Positions 16,576-57,460 of a stretch of DNA of 64,000 nt are shown here, in pieces. Numbering within the stretch: position 1 is the first letter of the stretch; each line of letters starts with the position of its first letter. The notes under the pieces were generated by a model. The model saw only the letters and a program-made list of their open reading frames with translations, had not been told where the DNA came from and did no database searches. Source of the stretch: an uncultured Cytophagales bacterium. Lineage in GTDB: Bacteria > Bacteroidota > Bacteroidia > Cytophagales > Thermonemataceae. The translations under genes and the position numbers were made by a program. The stretch is from contig CALEMF010000048.1 of assembly GCA_937911505.1 (NCBI GenBank), positions 1-64,000 of the forward strand, written 5' to 3'.

Positions 16576-16858
16576 CCTGTTTAAAAATTAAATTTATGTA
16601 TAATTAATATTTTACGAAATTTTAACCATTTATTCCTCAATCTACCTTTCGTTCATTTTTTAGCTGCGCTGAACTCCACTTCGTTCCGGTTCTTGATGAA
16701 CCGAGCCTCTGGCGAGCTCGGCGTAGCCCAAAACGAACCAAAAACCGAGCTGGCGAGCTCGACGAAGTCAAATCCAAAGCTTCTACCCACAAGCCAACTC
16801 GCCTCCCCGCTGGATTTTCAGGCCAATGCACCTGTATTGATCTTAAAAACAGATAGTT
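16576..16858 (+). repeat. Dispersed intergenic repeat, copy 1 (~280 bp)
   Basis: The region between glyQS and the LRR gene holds a repeat that recurs at 46107-46305, 54998-55265 and 57103-57365, always in the same orientation. Shared blocks in order: an edge near TTTAAAAATTAAATT; CTTTCGTTCATTTTTT; a variable central part made of short palindromes (GGTTC/GAACC, CCGAGC/GCTCGG, GAGCTCG..GAAG); AAATCCAAAGCTTC; CCCGCTGGATTTTCAGGCC; and an edge near CTTAAAAACA. The rest of the 16557-17050 gap shows no gene. Reverse-strand open frames in it appear to be chance products of the repeat. Confidence 0.85.
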
Positions 16859-46106: not shown

Positions 46107-46305
46107 ATGTTTAAAAATTAAATTCTTCATAATTAATACTTTACGAAATTTTCACCACTTATCCTTCAATTTGCCTTTCGTTCATTTTTTGACTTCGTCG
46201 AGCTCGGCGCAGCCAAATCCAAAGCTTCCGCCCACAAACCAGTCCACCTCCCCGCTGGATTTTCAGACCCGCGCACTTATAATATTCTTAAAAACAAACA
46301 GTTAG
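46107..46305 (+). repeat. Dispersed intergenic repeat, copy 2 (~200 bp)
   Basis: Shortest member of the repeat family. It shares with copy 1 the left edge TTTAAAAATTAAATT, TACGAAATTTT, CCTTTCGTTCATTTTTT, then GACTTCGTCGAGCTCGGCG, AAATCCAAAGCTTCCGCCC, the CCCGCTGGATTTTCAGACC block, and the right edge CTTAAAAACAAACAG. The central palindrome array is reduced compared with copies 1 and 4. It marks the left border of the immunity island; the rest of the 45910-46358 stretch shows nothing else. Confidence 0.85.
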
Positions 46306-47846: not shown

Positions 47847-48395
47847 CTAGATCTTGGTTAAATCCATATTATCAAAATATCTAATTCCGGTAAACCCTTC
47901 CTTATCCAGCGCTTTCTTGAGTGGCTCAGTCACAAATACTATCTCTGGACGATCGAGTAATCTAAAAAGATCCAATTCATATAATTTATCTTCTCGCACC
48001 ACTAGCTTCGTGATTTGGTCAGGTTTGTTTACTTTCTCATATACGGTATAGGTAGACTGCTCGTAATCCATACAGTTCCTAAGTCCGATGATGTTTAATA
48101 ACCAATATTTTTTATCGGCGATAGTTACCTCAATAAAATTGATTGGCTGATGCTTTACATTTTGTTCTATAAATAATCGTAACGGTTCGCTTACGAAATA
48201 TTCTGTAGAGCCTGTTCCTAATAGGTCTGGATATAGCTTTGTCTTATTTTTCAAAACCATTTTACGCAAGTCAACTGAATGCTCTTCTATTCTCTCTCCA
48301 TCAATAATGGCATCAATAACATCCCAAGAATGACCGGTATTTTCGATGTAGGCATGTTTTTCACCAGTGTATGGAGATATTTTGTAAACTTTCAT
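47847..48395 (-). CDS. Imm11/DUF1629-like immunity protein
   Basis: 182 residues, cytoplasmic, no signal peptide. The sequence ends in the pattern typical of Imm11 (DUF1629): LDLFRLLDRPEIVFVTEPLK, then KALDKEGFTGIRYFD, that is, a strand, VS/VT-E-x-L, a helix, and TGhxF. An earlier part has EYFVSEPLRLFIEQNV and YWLLNIIGLRNCMDYEQS. Immunity proteins of this type neutralise toxins from polymorphic secretion systems by direct binding. Short subtype (~185 residues) shared with the genes at 53259 and 56239. No cognate toxin is encoded nearby. Confidence 0.6.
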   Translation of the reverse strand: MKVYKISPYTGEKHAYIENTGHSWDVIDAIIDGERIEEHSVDLRKMVLKNKTKLYPDLLGTGSTEYFVSEPLRLFIEQNVKHQPINFIEVTIADKKYWLLNIIGLRNCMDYEQSTYTVYEKVNKPDQITKLVVREDKLYELDLFRLLDRPEIVFVTEPLKKALDKEGFTGIRYFDNMDLTKI

Positions 48396-50078: not shown

Positions 50079-50886
50079 TTAGGGTAAGCGCGTGACTTCC
50101 ACTTTTATTTCCCAACCTTTTTCATAAGCCCTGCTGGTGATACTCAGAATTTCCCAAGGTTACCATCCTCGTACTTCTCTAAAACGATTGTCTTCTGTAG
50201 TATCATAGTATTGTCTATTTTTTTCAAGTGCCTCTTTTAACTGTTTATTGAAAGAATCCTCACTACCAAAGTAGTATGCTTTTAGAAGCTCTTGTCTTGG
50301 CTCATCAATCATTGAAACATAGTTTTTCAACTCAGGATCATAGTTATACTTTTCTTTTGAGCTTATTGTATATTCATTATAAAGTTGCTCACTCGGCTTT
50401 GTTTCGTTTTTTATACATCTTGTAAGTCGGATGGTGTTCATGCTCTCCATAGTTTAAAAACGTACTATTTTCTTCTAGGTTAAGAATTAAGTCAGTTACT
50501 TGTTCGCAGCGACAAATAGAAGCATAGATATACGCACCCATGAGTGTAAATACTTTATCGTAACCTGTGCTTGTGTTAGTGAGTTCGACTTCTTTATCTG
50601 CTACCCAAAGTTTCAGGGGTTTCCCATTGTTATCAAGTGACCTAATATGCCCATAAATACCTTGCATGGCTAGTTTAAAATAGTGTCTTAACGTATCTAG
50701 GTCAGTTCCTCCATCTAACATTTTGAGGGTAAGCCACTTCACACTATTTCTATACAAGTAAAATGGCTTATCTCCTCCCTTATCTTGTGCCACTTTAATC
50801 ATTTCTATTTCTTTAGTCAAAGATCTTTCTAACTCCCCGTGGAAGAATTCTTTGTCGAAATTTTCAAAGCCAATCAAATTATCCAT
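50079..50886 (-). pseudogene. Imm49-like immunity gene, broken by frameshift and stop
   Basis: A paralogue of the intact gene at 52247-53101. The first part (ATG at 50886) reads FENFDKEFFHGELERSL, then LAMQGIYGHIRSLDNNGKP (the intact gene has LLMAMQGIYGHIKTLSNFGK), then AYIYASICRCEQVTDLIL. It hits a stop just past a run of six A, while the next frame continues with LLKAYYFGSEDSFNKQLKEA and NRQYYDTTEDNRFREVRGW. That frame then has an in-frame TAA and the natural C-terminus PWEILSITSRAYEKGWEIKV ends at 50079. One base indel plus one nonsense change, so inactive unless recoded. Confidence 0.78.
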
Positions 50887-51217
50887 TATCAAAAGTATTT
50901 GTCTTTGGATGATATGTCACTTTCATTAATGTAGGCACTTCACGTTCATCTTCTTGAAATAAGTTTGCTATCATTTCAACACTCTCTACTCCTTTATCTA
51001 AAAAATCAAACATACTGTCATCATCAACATTGTACTTCTCACTAGACGCGTCATTTACTTCGTGCGTACCGACTATTTGATCATTAATATTGTAGATTGA
51101 ACAATACATATAGATAGATTTTACCTCTGTACAATTGTTTCCTACATACACAAAGGTATCTTCCACTATGCTAGTAGTTAGTTTCATAAATCGGTTGCCA
51201 AAGGCTTTAACCTTCAT
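50879..51217 (-). CDS. Small unknown protein, candidate immunity protein
   Basis: 112 residues, acidic, no signal peptide. Middle part DDDSMFDFLDKGVESVEMIA; the end TLMKVTYHPKTNTFDNG has the K-x-T-Y-x-P-x-T-x-x-F-D shape seen at the C-terminus of YezG/DUF600-like immunity proteins, but no closer match is seen. Its stop overlaps the start of the Imm49-like pseudogene by 8 bases, so the two formed an operon. Begins 15 bases after a tiny basic frame (51331-51233). Confidence 0.5.
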   Translation of the reverse strand: MKVKAFGNRFMKLTTSIVEDTFVYVGNNCTEVKSIYMYCSIYNINDQIVGTHEVNDASSEKYNVDDDSMFDFLDKGVESVEMIANLFQEDEREVPTLMKVTYHPKTNTFDNG

Positions 51218-52246: not shown

Positions 52247-53101
52247 TTACTTATCATAAACGGAGGGTACATTATACTCTCCTGTTACAAACGCCATAGG
52301 AAGGCGTGGGTCATCCACTGTTATTTTCCAGCCTTTATCATAGGCCTTACAGGCTACAAAAATGATTGGCCAAGGTAGCCAATTTATAGAATCCCGGCAG
52401 CGTCCCTCTTCCTCGGTATCATAGTATTCTCTATTTTTATTTAACGCAGTTTCCAGCGATTGATTAAAGGTATTAGCATCGGAAAAGAAATAAGCATGTT
52501 CTAGTGCTATCAGCGGTTTGCTTACATACTCTCTGTACCCTTCTTCTTCGGCGCCTTGTAGTCTATCCAGATTGGCCTTTTGGCAGTGCTCAAAGGACTC
52601 TTCATCAACCTCCTTCTCATTTTTAAAAAACTTTAATATTTTGTAGGCCGATGAGTACTCAAAACGACCCTCTCTAAAAAAAAGGGTTGAATCATCTTGC
52701 GCCATCACTAAATCAATAACGTCTTTATTACGGCAAATACTGGCATTGACATACGCACCCCATAAGTCAAACACGGTATCATAGCTATTTTTTTTGTTTA
52801 CCAATTCCACCTCCTCGCCGTCTATGGGTATTTTGGTAGGCTTACCAAAGTTGGAAAGGGTTTTTATATGGCCATAAATACCTTGCATAGCCATTAGGAG
52901 ATCTTTAGCGATACTTGCTTTACCGTGACTTCCTTCTATATATTTTAGCGTTACCCAGCTTTTGGCATCTATGTACAAATAATACAGTCGATCTCCATTA
53001 TTTTTGGCTAAATGAAGCATTTCGTCTCTGAAGCCTAGTAGGTCTTCATATTCTTCTTTAAAGAAATTTTGGTCAAAGTTTTTAAAATTAATCTGGATCA
53101 T
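52247..53101 (-). CDS. Imm49-like immunity protein
   Basis: 284 residues from the ATG at 53101; an upstream extension of 23 codons is basic and unlike the family, so this start is preferred. Helical, cytoplasmic. Motifs shared with the paralogue at 50079: AMQGIYGHIKTLSNFGKPT, DLWGAYVNASICRNKDVID, LEHAYFFSDANTFNQSLETA, NKNREYYDTEEEGRCRDS, and the final WPIIFVACKAYDKGWKITVD. The pattern of an internal GEEVEL strand and C-terminal A.A.D.G...... resembles Imm49. Assignment is by recognition of pattern, not search. Confidence 0.6.
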   Translation of the reverse strand: MIQINFKNFDQNFFKEEYEDLLGFRDEMLHLAKNNGDRLYYLYIDAKSWVTLKYIEGSHGKASIAKDLLMAMQGIYGHIKTLSNFGKPTKIPIDGEEVELVNKKNSYDTVFDLWGAYVNASICRNKDVIDLVMAQDDSTLFFREGRFEYSSAYKILKFFKNEKEVDEESFEHCQKANLDRLQGAEEEGYREYVSKPLIALEHAYFFSDANTFNQSLETALNKNREYYDTEEEGRCRDSINWLPWPIIFVACKAYDKGWKITVDDPRLPMAFVTGEYNVPSVYDK

Positions 53102-53258
53102 TTCAAATCGTTTATTCAAAGTCGCGCTCAGTGCTTTACCACCTTTAATGAATAGCTTTGTAAAGCGCAACCTTTAATAGCCTGTATAATTGTATGCGAT
53201 ACACTTAAAAAGATGAGAATAGGCACTAAAATATTTCAACTATTAGCCATCCATTGAA

Positions 53259-53825
53259 TCAAATTATTTTAAACTCTCCCAGAGAAATAAAGCTCAGTCC
53301 CGTGATATTATTTTCTTCAATAGCTTGCTTAAACTTTTGATTGACAAAAATGGCTGTTCTTATTGGGGTAATTCTAAATATATTTCTGCGAGAAAGCATT
53401 TCTTCTTTTAAGACTAGCTTGGCTATACTATTAATAACTGTGGAGCCTTCGAAAGTATTATAGACTGAATTTTCTTTATCAAAACAATCCATGTTTTCTA
53501 GGATATTGAAAGCATAGTATTTTTGATTAGCTGGATCGGCAGATTTAAAAACATTTATACCACAAAATTCAAAAAGCTCTTTTTCAAACTGTTGTTCGAG
53601 CAGGTTTTTTAACCTCTCCGACACTATTGGTACGCCTGGATCGTAGAAATCAACCAGCAGTTTTTCATCATTATAGTTTATTCTTATCTCAAAATTATCT
53701 TCATTAGCAAGCGACTTTCCTTTTCTAATCTTAGAAGCAACTTTGGGATCATATTTTATCAGTGAAAAGGGTTTTCTCCCATCTTTGAAGTAATTGTTAA
53801 TAGCATAAAAATCCATCACTTTCAT
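53259..53825 (-). CDS. Imm11/DUF1629-like immunity protein (short subtype)
   Basis: 188 residues. C-terminal part RNIFRITPIRTAIFVNQKFK, then QAIEENNITGLSFISLGEF is the Imm11 end pattern (VN/VS-x-x-h, helix, ITGhxF). Middle has VPIVSERLKNLLEQQF and YYAFNILENMDCFDKENSVY, matching the same positions in the gene at 47847. Followed by no gap problem: the upstream long-subtype gene ends 27 bases before its start, so the two are probably one transcript. Confidence 0.6.
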   Translation of the reverse strand: MKVMDFYAINNYFKDGRKPFSLIKYDPKVASKIRKGKSLANEDNFEIRINYNDEKLLVDFYDPGVPIVSERLKNLLEQQFEKELFEFCGINVFKSADPANQKYYAFNILENMDCFDKENSVYNTFEGSTVINSIAKLVLKEEMLSRRNIFRITPIRTAIFVNQKFKQAIEENNITGLSFISLGEFKII

Positions 53826-53851
53826 AGTGCTTTAGTACGACTGAAAAGAGA

Positions 53852-54511
53852 CTATTGGTTTATAATTTCCCACTTGAGGTCCTTAAACGCAAATCCGACT
53901 AATCTTGACGCTTCAATTTTGTCTTTTACTCTTTGACTTATAATAATATAAGGATTGTACGGAAACCTAAAAAGGTCAAAAGCCTCAGTTAATACAAGTT
54001 TAGTAGGAACAATAGTCTTACCCTTTGAACCTTCTTTAGCTAACACTTCATTAACCTTTTCCAAATCACTACTTGTATTTATCTCAACTTCTCCGTCACT
54101 CAGATTTAGCAACTCGCTTTTGATCTCAAAAACGGAATGTTTATAATCATAGATACCAATGGAAGGCTTTATTCTCATGTAGTAATAATCGTGACCAATA
54201 TCATCTTCGGAATAAACTGTCGCAGAAAAGAATGAGGTATTGCTAAGCGTAAATGCCCAGAAAAGGTTTTTTGCCTGATTGCTAATCAGAAAGCCATTTA
54301 ATACAGAAAAAAACCTTACCGTTAGAGAGTCAGTTAGGGCAGCTCCGCTATCTAGTAAAAAACTGTCCATATTCGGTAACTCTTCATCCTTGAGAGTGCT
54401 CAAATAACCAAACTTATCGGTATCTTTCACAGCCTCTTTTATTTCTTTAATTTGAGGAAATGTTCCAATTACGTCAAGTCTTGTTAGCCTTACCAAAGAA
54501 TAGTACCTCAT
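53852..54511 (-). CDS. Imm11/DUF1629-like immunity protein (long subtype)
   Basis: 219 residues. Begins MRYYSLVRLTRLDVIGTFPQ, parallel to the 51455 gene; shares LDSGAALTDSLTVRFFSVL, NGFLISNQAKNLFWAFTLSN, and IGIYDYKHSVFEIKS. C-terminus ISQRVKDKIEASRLVGFAFK has the family's SxxhKxxh....hGhxF. It is preceded, 53 bases upstream, by the full-length XRE regulator gene and followed by a short-subtype immunity gene, giving an XRE-imm-imm operon (54960-53259). Confidence 0.6.
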   Translation of the reverse strand: MRYYSLVRLTRLDVIGTFPQIKEIKEAVKDTDKFGYLSTLKDEELPNMDSFLLDSGAALTDSLTVRFFSVLNGFLISNQAKNLFWAFTLSNTSFFSATVYSEDDIGHDYYYMRIKPSIGIYDYKHSVFEIKSELLNLSDGEVEINTSSDLEKVNEVLAKEGSKGKTIVPTKLVLTEAFDLFRFPYNPYIIISQRVKDKIEASRLVGFAFKDLKWEIINQ

Positions 54512-54564
54512 ATGTTTATCTGCTTATTCGACTATTTGGCAGAGGAGAGATATCAGCCTCTCCC

Positions 54565-54960
54565 TTACCCCTTCATTTTACTACTTATCTCTCTAATGAT
54601 AGCCATCAGTTCTGCACGCTCCTTACGCATCTCTGCTAGTTCTGCTTTTAGCAGCTCGATTACCTCGGAGGCGGCATGATAATGAACATCTCCGTTTGTA
54701 TAACCGGTGTTACTATTACAATGATCATTGGTATTGGTAGTATTGAAGTTAATTTGCTTTTCGACACCTAATAGGTCAGTAACGGTTGTTTCGAACAGCT
54801 CTGCTAACTGCTCTAGTCGCTCTATGGTAAAGCTTTTCGTTTGGTTTGCCTCTATTTTGCTGTAGGCATTTTGGGAAATGCCTAGCTCTTCTGCTACAAA
54901 TTCTTGGCTATAGTTGAGTCTTAGCCGATGTTTTTTGATGTTGTCGCCTAGTACATTCAT
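54565..54960 (-). CDS. XRE-family transcriptional regulator
   Basis: 131 residues. Helix-turn-helix at ~8-62: IKKHRLRLNYSQEFVAEELG, then ISQNAYSKIEANQTKSFTIE and RLEQLAELFETTVTDLLG. A polar linker follows, then a C-terminal coiled coil (EVIELLKAELAEMRKERAEL) likely for oligomerisation. Its first ~35 codons and upstream DNA are identical to the second XRE gene at 56805-57065. Lies at the head of the XRE-immunity-immunity operon, suggesting control of immunity gene expression. Repeat copy 3 sits 38 bases upstream of its start. Confidence 0.88.
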   Translation of the reverse strand: MNVLGDNIKKHRLRLNYSQEFVAEELGISQNAYSKIEANQTKSFTIERLEQLAELFETTVTDLLGVEKQINFNTTNTNDHCNSNTGYTNGDVHYHAASEVIELLKAELAEMRKERAELMAIIREISSKMKG

Positions 54961-55086
54961 TTGAGGGAGCGTTTATTGGTATAATATCTAATAGTATACT
55001 TAAAAACTAAATTCTGTATAGTTCACAGGCTGCAAAGTACTTACTACTTGTGCTTCTATTTATCTTCTGTTCATTTTTTGACTTCG
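54851..55086. repeat. 236-bp exact direct repeat, left copy (XRE 5' end and leader)
   Basis: Identical by eye, base for base, to 56956-57191 (offset 2105). It covers the first ~36 codons of the XRE gene, its leader, and the left part of the dispersed repeat up to TTTTTTGACTTCG, where the two copies diverge. Lower but clear similarity extends further into the XRE gene. Confidence 0.92.
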
Positions 55087-55265
55087 TCAAATACCAATTA
55101 GCTATGATTCTTGATAAGTTGAGCTACCAGCGAGCTTGACGAAGCCAACCGAGCTTACGAGTTTAATGTAACTAAAATCCCTAGCTTCTACTCCTGAAAT
55201 CAGCCCATTGTCCTGCTAGACTTTCAAACTAGCGCACATGTTTTGGAATTTAAAATAAATAATCA
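54998..55265 (+). repeat. Dispersed intergenic repeat, copy 3 (~270 bp)
   Basis: Edge TACTTAAAAACTAAATTC; block CTTCTGTTCATTTTTTGACTTCG; a diverged palindrome region with GCGAGCTTGACGAAGCC; a worn copy of the right block (GTCCTGCTAGACTTTCAAACTAGCGCAC); and right edge TTTAAAATAAATAA. The most diverged member on its right half. It fills the gap 54961-55284 between the XRE gene and the next immunity gene. Confidence 0.8.
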
Positions 55266-55284
55266 CAAACAACCTAAGCACTGT

Positions 55285-55926
55285 TCAAATGTATACATAA
55301 TTCATGTATCGTTCAAAATAAGCTCCTGTAATACCATATTCTTCCATCTTATTTTTAAGCCCTTCTGAAATCAAAATTTCTACATTGTATGGAGATCTTA
55401 AAACATCAACCCTTTTGAAAAGAACTAGTTTTTTGGGTTCTACGAAATCTGGTAAATCTACGCGATCCTTGTCCTTGAGATGCACCTGTTTATTCTCCTC
55501 AGAGAAATCCACAAAAACAGAATGATCAAAATCAATTAACTCGACACAGTTATCAATTAAGTGCATAAAATGATAACCCTCTGATACTTCGCCCGTTTTT
55601 AACTCAATAGATGTTTTATAAAACCTAACTCCATGTATGTTAACTTGCCCCAGTAATTCTTTAAATTTTTTACTCACAAATATACCAAGTGATTTGGCAG
55701 GAAGATACGAACTCAGAACATCGGTTAAAATAGCCCCTTTTTTTAACCTGAAGTTTTCTAAATTAGGCTCTATTTGAGGAAAAGACCGATAATCTAATAT
55801 TTTAAAATTGTTTTGTTTTTTATAGTAGTCTTTAGGAATGTCAAGTTGTTCCCATACGCCCACTTCTTCTAGCGAAGTCGAAGGACACAAAGTATAATAA
55901 TTTATCGAATTCATATTATTTATCAT
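55285..55926 (-). CDS. Imm11/DUF1629-like immunity protein (long subtype)
   Basis: 213 residues. Contains FRLKKGAILTDVLSSYLPAK, LGIFVSKKFKELLGQVNIHG, VELIDFDHSVFVDFSEEN, and a C-terminus LISEGLKNKMEEYGITGAYF with the ITGhxF end. These match the long-subtype layout of 51455 and 53852. Starts at 55926, or at a second ATG four codons on. Lies between the two direct-repeat copies, followed by the XRE leader. Confidence 0.58.
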   Translation of the reverse strand: MINNMNSINYYTLCPSTSLEEVGVWEQLDIPKDYYKKQNNFKILDYRSFPQIEPNLENFRLKKGAILTDVLSSYLPAKSLGIFVSKKFKELLGQVNIHGVRFYKTSIELKTGEVSEGYHFMHLIDNCVELIDFDHSVFVDFSEENKQVHLKDKDRVDLPDFVEPKKLVLFKRVDVLRSPYNVEILISEGLKNKMEEYGITGAYFERYMNYVYI

Positions 55927-56238
55927 TTTGGTGATTTACCTTTTAAACTCAGCAAACAACTTACTACCTTGTGTTCATAGAGGTTTAGAATCGCTGTTAG
56001 GCAAAGTAACTCTTCCTCAAGACCAAGTAAGTGATGATAGAGCGTTAGACTTTACTAAGGCTGTTGGTCTTAAAGTTCCGCGTCAGCAAGTTAAGTGAAA
56101 TGGGTTGATCTCCTTCCCAACCTGAATCAGTACATAAAACACTTTGAGCCTTTGAGAAATCCTTTGTACACCTTTCATAAAGGGTTTCTTAGCGTAATTA
56201 GATAAGGCTAGAAGAGGACATTGTTTATCAACGTCTAA
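55927..56238 (+). other. Gap with a possible decayed plus-strand coding remnant
   Basis: On the plus strand, one frame gives LPCVHRGLESLLGKVTLPQD then QVSDDRALDFTKAVGLKVPR before a stop. One frame over, the sequence continues with VKWVDLLPNLNQYIKHFEPL then RNPLYTFHKGFLSVIR and a stop. Together they read like one protein C-terminus with a frameshift near 56095. The family was not recognised. It runs opposite to the surrounding immunity genes. Confidence 0.3.
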
Positions 56239-56808
56239 TTAAAAGGTTGATTTTGATAAGGGTCTAAAAGTTACCCCCTTTAAATTTGCGGCATCAATTA
56301 AGCTCTTTAATTGCTCACTAAGTACTACATTCGTTCTCATTTCTTCAAAGCGATATATGTCTACATCTAACAAATTATCTTGCCTTATGACGAGCTTATC
56401 AATACCTATAACTCTTCCGGTTGATAACTGTACAACTTGAGATTTGGTAAAGTCAATAGGAGATTTAAGCTTTAGCGGGTTCAATAAAAAATAATCCAGA
56501 TTCTTTTTGCGCTGGCAAATAAGGGTTACTGGCACGAGTTCGACTTTGTTCTGAACATGTTTTAATAATATATCAGCGAATTTTTTTGATACAATATCAT
56601 AATTACTGATTGCCAATATTATGTCACCGACTATTTTATTTTTCACATAGAAGATAAGGTCATTGCTTGAGTATTTCTTTAAAGACATTCCTAGCTGGTG
56701 CTCGGCTATATCTACAACATCTACGTCCATCTCTTTAGGCAGCTTATGACGATCAATAAAACACTCCTCTTCTATAATGTCAGCTTGTAAAGTATATAGT
56801 TCTTTCAT
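56239..56808 (-). CDS. Imm11/DUF1629-like immunity protein (short subtype)
   Basis: 189 residues. Features: KKFADILLKHVQNKVELVPV, LDYFLLNPLKLKSPIDFTKS, KLVIRQDNLLDVDIYRFEEM, and an end RTNVVLSEQLKSLIDAANLK then GVTFRPLS, the Imm11 finish. The KLVIRQDNL..(L/V)D(L/I)(F/Y)R segment is shared with 47847 (KLVVREDKLYELDLFR). Its ATG overlaps the stop of the truncated XRE gene (ATGA), so it is translationally coupled to it. Confidence 0.6.
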   Translation of the reverse strand: MKELYTLQADIIEEECFIDRHKLPKEMDVDVVDIAEHQLGMSLKKYSSNDLIFYVKNKIVGDIILAISNYDIVSKKFADILLKHVQNKVELVPVTLICQRKKNLDYFLLNPLKLKSPIDFTKSQVVQLSTGRVIGIDKLVIRQDNLLDVDIYRFEEMRTNVVLSEQLKSLIDAANLKGVTFRPLSKSTF

Positions 56809-57065
56809 TGTATATAGCCAGTGCTATCATTATGGTCGTTCGTAGTATTAAAGGTGATATGCTTTTCAATACCCAGCAGGTCATTGACGGTTGTCTCAAA
56901 AAGCGCTGCCAACTGCTCTAGTCGCTCTATGGTAAAGTTTTTCGTTTGGTTTGCTTCTATTTTGCTGTAGGCATTTTGGGAAATGCCTAGCTCTTCTGCT
57001 ACAAATTCTTGGCTATAGTTGAGTCTTAGCCGATGTTTTTTGATGTTGTCGCCTAGTACATTCAT
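56805..57065 (-). CDS. Truncated XRE-family regulator fused in operon with an immunity gene
   Basis: 86 residues. The helix-turn-helix is intact and almost the same as in the 54565 gene (EANQTKNFTIERLEQLAALF vs EANQTKSFTIERLEQLAELF). The protein stops at STGYIQ, just where the full-length paralogue goes on (NTGYTNGDVHYHAASEV) into its coiled coil. The stop overlaps the next gene's start (ATGA). So the DNA-binding part is kept, while the oligomerisation tail was replaced by the incoming immunity gene. It may bind the same operator without its normal partner interface. Confidence 0.8.
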   Translation of the reverse strand: MNVLGDNIKKHRLRLNYSQEFVAEELGISQNAYSKIEANQTKNFTIERLEQLAALFETTVNDLLGIEKHITFNTTNDHNDSTGYIQ

Positions 57066-57191
57066 TTGAGGGAGCGTTTATTGGTATAATATCTAATAGT
57101 ATACTTAAAAACTAAATTCTGTATAGTTCACAGGCTGCAAAGTACTTACTACTTGTGCTTCTATTTATCTTCTGTTCATTTTTTGACTTCG
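56956..57191. repeat. 236-bp exact direct repeat, right copy (XRE 5' end and leader)
   Basis: Second copy of the block at 54851-55086, 2105 bases away in the same orientation, covering the XRE start and leader and entering repeat copy 4. The pair flanks two immunity genes and would allow deletion or amplification by homologous recombination. Confidence 0.92.
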
Positions 57192-57365
57192 CTGAACTCC
57201 ACTTCGTTTCGGTTCTTGATGAACCGAGCTTCTGGCGAGCTCAACGAAGTCAACCGACGTAGGAGCTCAGCGAAGCTAAATCCAAAGCTCCTACCCACGA
57301 AGCTTACCCACCTCCTCGCTGGATTTTCAGGCCAACACACTTATTTTAAGCTTGAAAAATAAATG
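57103..57365 (+). repeat. Dispersed intergenic repeat, copy 4 (~265 bp)
   Basis: Left part identical to copy 3; the central part returns to the copy 1 form, with GAACTCCACTTCGTTTCGGT, GGTTCTTGATGAACC hairpin, CGAGCTTCTGGCGAGCTC, and AAATCCAAAGCTCCTACCC. Right block CCTCGCTGGATTTTCAGGCC is well conserved. It is the right edge of the immunity island; htpG begins its 3' end about 95 bases further. The remainder of 57066-57460 holds only the htpG terminator. Confidence 0.85.
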
Positions 57366-57411
57366 ACTATAGCACGTCTAAAGTTATAACAAGACGGAGA
57401 ATTTACAAAAT

Positions 57412-57442
57412 AGCCGTCACCTGATATACTCAGATGACGGCT
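57412..57442 (-). terminator. Terminator downstream of htpG
   Basis: Stem AGCCGTCA-C-CTGA / TCAG-A-TGACGGCT (13-bp arms with one mismatch, G-U on the minus-strand RNA, 5-base loop), followed on the minus strand by ATTTTG. Lies about 20 bases after the htpG stop. Confidence 0.75.
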
Positions 57443-57460
57443 TTACTATGGAAAATAAGT

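Follow-up and report, generated by a model that had tools for sequence, protein, structure and literature searches.

Recombination between paralogues has been documented in T7SS immunity arrays for esaG and tipC (Garrett et al, 2022, PMC9484751). Imm11 genes are known from polyimmunity loci of both the homogeneous and the heterogeneous type (Zhang et al, 2012, PMC3482391), and the rAID arrays are defined by a tyrosine recombinase together with conserved intergenic motifs (PMC12247911). The locus described here lies in a 64,000-nucleotide stretch of DNA from an uncultured Cytophagales bacterium, and this whole stretch is called the window below; the data for the locus come from one genome, a draft assembly of 123 contigs. 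Clustered Imm11 and Imm49 genes in one orientation were found, in agreement with the immunity array recognised in a preliminary description of this DNA, and the locus is a polyimmunity array of orphan Imm11 and Imm49 genes. Five Imm11 ORFs and one Imm49 ORF passed the cut-offs in the window, all on the minus strand.

The array is transcribed from right to left and starts next to htpG, which is followed by a terminator-like hairpin (57412–57442, minus strand) with a 13-bp stem and a T-rich tail; this hairpin, recognised by consensus match only, separates htpG from the XRE2 operon. A MITE-like element comes next, and then the gene of XRE2, a shortened HTH_3 regulator of 86 aa (56805–57065, minus strand), Imm11-B (56239–56808, minus strand; Pfam Imm11 E = 1.8e-8), and Imm11-A (55285–55926, minus strand; E = 6.6e-11). 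A second element leads to the gene of XRE1, a full-length HTH_3 regulator of 131 aa (54565–54960, minus strand; Pfam HTH_3 E = 4.4e-13), and XRE1 is followed downstream by Imm11-C (53852–54511, minus strand; E = 2e-5), Imm11-D (53259–53825, minus strand; E = 1.8e-20), the Imm49 gene (52247–53170, minus strand; Pfam Imm49 E = 8e-15), and, at the far end of the array, Imm11-F (47847–48395, minus strand; E = 2.9e-14). The region 50160–50892 contains a second Imm49-like gene split in two overlapping frames (50389–50892 and 50160–50450). It is probably related to the intact Imm49 gene and carries a frameshift; the DNA identity between the two regions is 58%. No toxin domain was recognised in the array ORFs scanned, among which several small ORFs matched no family and may hide an unrecognised toxin. 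Similarly, no Pfam match to a recombinase was obtained among the array ORFs, and the flanking genes at 57–64 kb were judged by reading of their translations only.

The Imm11-B and Imm11-A genes, the Pfam matches of which bear out the two Imm11-like genes noted earlier, are bracketed by a direct repeat located at 54851–55086 (copy 1, the downstream copy, minus strand) and 56956–57191 (copy 2, the upstream copy, minus strand). The two copies were confirmed to be identical letter for letter over 236 bp, in direct orientation and with a spacing of 2105 bp, and the first base outside the block was mismatched at each end. Three parts make up the block: codons 1–36 of the HTH_3 regulator (XRE1 in copy 1 and XRE2 in copy 2), a short leader, and the left part of a dispersed repeat, which is entered at about 54983 in copy 1. 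When the whole genome was searched with the block, exactly two full-length copies were found along with 38 partial matches at 71–86% identity, mostly to its second half, which gave the first hint that the supposed leader was not unique. The block had been described as the XRE start and leader; the XRE start was correct, whereas the leader turned out to be mostly (about 54983–55086) the left part of the dispersed repeat. Apart from the block, which was present in two copies only, no other intergenic repeat family of at least 25 nt was found in 48–64 kb.

The self-comparison of 46–57.5 kb placed the block within an older duplication, seen as one 542-bp alignment of 84.5% identity between 54724–55260 and 56826–57364 (both on the minus strand). 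On the XRE side of the block 107 of 133 alignment columns (80%) were identical, and on the other side 122 of 182 (67%). Thus, the divergence reported just beyond the block is real on both sides, but the flanks are still homologous. When the 83 difference events of the 542-bp alignment were placed at random in 20,000 trials, the longest identical run had a mean of 30 and a maximum of 87, and 236 was reached in 0/20,000. A recent duplication that placed the XRE start and leader on both sides of the cassette would agree with blocks that are exactly identical and in direct orientation. However, a single event of this kind would leave the whole 542 bp nearly identical, and the homology was found to run past the block with the above differences, which include 12 synonymous differences between XRE1 and XRE2 in codons 37–80, beyond the block edge. 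We consider such a duplication very unlikely, and of the two origins proposed earlier, a recent duplication or a gene conversion, it is the conversion that was retained.

The dispersed repeat was found to have the features of a MITE-like family, that is, dispersed non-coding copies bearing terminal inverted repeats. In an alignment of 40 copies, its shortest form measured about 225–230 bp, with the inverted ends TTAGAGAATGTTTAA ... TTTAAACATACTCTTA and a core hairpin around CTTGAT (GTTCATTTTTCCTTGATGAAAAACGAAC). The tail pattern gave 67 matches in the genome, and the same pattern read backwards, used as control, gave 0. The window contains an old degraded copy at 54983–55300 and a chimeric copy at 57088–57390 (both with approximate ends and recognised by homology to the dispersed family), each with its left part in the exact block, and further copies at 16581–16790 and 46111–46240. 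By eye only, a TA or TTA target-site duplication was suggested, and the variants of the core stem looked compensatory. The core hairpin carries a varying number of 26–30-nt palindromic units (ACCGA..GAGCTC..CG.AGYYA) at a few recurring insertion points, and these insertions lengthen one hairpin of the element while its outer stem is kept. In 284 kb of sequence chosen for its elements, 46 of 48 such units were in or near the MITE-like element and the other 2 in a related hairpin. The hairpin core (CTTGATGAAAAACGAACCAAAAAATCAAG and close variants) was present in 26 copies in the own genome, with 0 for the backward control, and an exact-pattern search across Bacteroidota detected it in 10 of 395 genomes (e.g., L077–L080, G005, G022, and G056). 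The scan of the named genomes with the exact 28-base core gave four matches elsewhere, and one of them, in the Flavobacteriaceae MAG L077, had a near full-length element. The core sequence was not found in any of the papers searched.

Ten contigs of the assembly (C4, C34, C41, C44, C50, C84, C92, C96, C105, and C116) start or stop inside or near MITE-like copies. The element is probably one cause of the assembly breaks, and the contig ends within it fit a short-read assembly. The draft state of the genome and these contig ends in other element copies would also suit an artefact in which one unit was entered twice. In that case, the doubly entered unit would not be expected to end within older homology on both sides, and the four flanks of the block are distinct, being diverged but homologous on either side; an assembly artefact is therefore rated as highly improbable.

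The regulator genes allowed the constraint on the block to be assessed. XRE1 and XRE2 have 0 differences in codons 2–36, and 14 codons differ in codons 37–70, with 9 synonymous and 5 non-synonymous changes. XRE2 is without the C-terminal segment that is kept in the other paralogues of the own genome that were aligned, XRE1 among them, and its stop codon TGA shares bases with the ATG start codon of Imm11-B (ATGA). The block spans the leader and the first part of the HTH domain, and such a region might be held identical by purifying selection if it included an essential operator, leader RNA, or protein end. When XRE1 was compared with a paralogue on contig C46, however, 12 synonymous changes were found in codons 2–36 and 11 in codons 37–70, and thus the first half of XRE1 is not unusually constrained. 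Furthermore, the part of the block that belongs to the MITE-like element has degenerated relative to its family, no significant fold was obtained (z of 0.26 and −0.99), and Rfam gave no match up to E = 1 for the leader and seven other repeat loci. With these results, identity held by selection is hardly credible. Neither a shared operator motif nor a convincing promoter was found in the XRE leaders, a result that speaks against a co-regulation of the two immunity operons. Two further XRE genes of this family, also in tandem in the own genome (contig C54; L068 4106–4489 and 4773–5138), showed 69% identity with a longest run of 20; having no long exact run, they contrast with the pair in the window.

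The possibility of XRE being a regular partner of Imm11 was rejected. The own genome has about 12 XRE paralogues, of which only 2 adjoin Imm genes, and the other genomes searched, relatives included, gave no member of this XRE family in the vicinity of Imm11. As most of the paralogues are located away from Imm genes and none occurs near Imm11 in those genomes, the XRE-Imm11 pairing is local.

The direction of transfer was analysed on 29 near-complete element copies by measuring, in the left 98, the next 54, and the next 121 nt, the identity to the most similar of the other copies. The medians were 88.8% (left), 96.3% (centre), and 83.9% (right). The downstream element of the window was old throughout, with 77.0, 67.3, and 66.9% to the best other copy, and the upstream element was mixed, with 77.0% in the left, 94.4% in the centre, and 81.1% in the right part. 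The left-part identity of 77% in both window elements was the lowest among the 29 copies. Because the upstream element is chimeric, having an old left part and a young centre, and the downstream element is uniformly old, the downstream copy (54851–55086) is the likely donor and the upstream copy (56956–57191) the likely recipient. This direction is based on a single chimeric element, the young centre of which could come from another copy of the family.

The exact run between flanks of lower identity, the outcome of the permutations, and the lack of special constraint together argue for a recent conversion between old paralogues. In the account that we hold to be quite probable, a unit composed of the MITE-like element, the leader, and the XRE regulator gene is present in the array as two old paralogues. 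A recent non-reciprocal recombination would have transferred 236 bp between them, most likely from the downstream to the upstream unit, and this tract comprises half the element, the leader, and the DNA-binding end of XRE. As a result, the two immunity operons would now be identical in their leader and in the first part of the regulator DNA-binding module, and they are probably controlled alike. The nucleotides themselves show an exact tract surrounded by diverged homologous sequence, flanks that are old, an upstream element that is chimeric, and a truncated XRE2 overlapping an Imm11 start, and gene conversion is the most likely mechanism by which such a pattern would arise. The immunity genes were not involved in the copying, since the Imm11 proteins are mostly only 23–28% identical to one another. 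The copying of the immunity cassette as a unit was thus not supported; the bracketed genes did not arise recently from the neighbouring pair, and a recognisable duplication is limited to the regulator-leader-element unit. The Imm proteins would be expected to neutralise incoming toxins.

The distribution of Imm11 was patchy: none of the 7 other family genomes searched has it, and the order has it in 17 of the 194 genomes, the own genome counted. The G+C content was 32–39% in the array as against 37–44% on the htpG-recR side, and this lower value and the patchy distribution fit a horizontal gain. A circular or linear DNA with Imm11-B, Imm11-A, and its own XRE leader might have been inserted by a single crossover at a resident leader, leaving direct repeats behind. 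The exact block would then be the crossover region, or the insertion could be the older source of the 542-bp duplication, with conversion coming later. The patchy occurrence of the array, the lack of relationship at the 25% level between the bracketed Imm11 pair and the next pair, the full-length XRE that remains once the 2105 bp are removed, and the hybrid nature of the upstream element are in favour of this scheme. However, a crossover between diverged homologues yields reciprocal hybrids and not 236 bp that are identical in both copies, so that a conversion is still needed. In addition, no empty site was found at htpG, around which the gene order is not conserved in the family relatives, and no plasmid relative was matched when 53000–57460 was searched by distant blastn. 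The insertion by itself is considered unlikely, and the conversion between two resident units is preferred.

The proposal that the repeats could act as a substrate for deletion or amplification holds in principle. If the two blocks recombined by crossover, exactly 2105 bp would be lost, Imm11-B and Imm11-A included, and a full-length XRE would remain; a deletion would thus be harmless to the regulator, and the loss of the cassette by repeat recombination appears mechanically possible from the arrangement of the repeats. A wider role of the XRE-leader-MITE unit as a recurring landing or exchange point, where cassettes sharing the leader are gained and lost by homologous recombination and conversion keeps them under the resident regulator, is a speculative extension that we regard as doubtful. 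What this one genome shows is an array whose control region has been homogenised while its immunity genes have remained very different from one another. Should sister strains vary at the locus, it could be tested directly whether repeated units of regulator and leader permit the gain and shedding of cassettes without a dedicated recombinase.

The MITE-like element resembles the bacterial MITEs and REP-type repeats (e.g., PMC3733652 and PMC9769881) in its short non-coding dispersed copies, terminal inverted repeats, and palindromic core, and differs from them in the core hairpin that bears varying counts of 26–30-nt palindromic units. Like the rAID arrays, the locus has co-oriented short orphan immunity genes and some repeated sequence in a Bacteroidota genome. 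The rAID arrays have a recombinase gene at the array head and a motif at every intergenic gap, whereas here no tyrosine recombinase gene was recognised in or beside the array and only two repeat copies, made of the regulator gene and the MITE, are present. The two defining features of the rAID arrays were not found at the locus, since Pfam recognised no recombinase among the array ORFs and no conserved motifs occur between the immunity genes. The locus resembles the polyimmunity loci (PMC3482391) in its succession of Imm11 and Imm49 genes with no toxin gene recognised alongside, and the difference is that each of the two sub-arrays here is headed by an XRE gene with a repeat-derived leader. 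With the esaG and tipC arrays (PMC9484751), the locus shares the immunity array and the conserved blocks of homology, which in those arrays recombine and can drive the loss and gain of genes. The blocks in esaG and tipC are within the immunity genes and were followed in many strains, whereas here, in one genome, they comprise the regulator gene and leader, and the Imm genes are not homogenised. Thus, paralogues of immunity arrays are already known to recombine, and the distinctive feature of this locus is that the DNA-binding end of the regulator and the leader have been homogenised.
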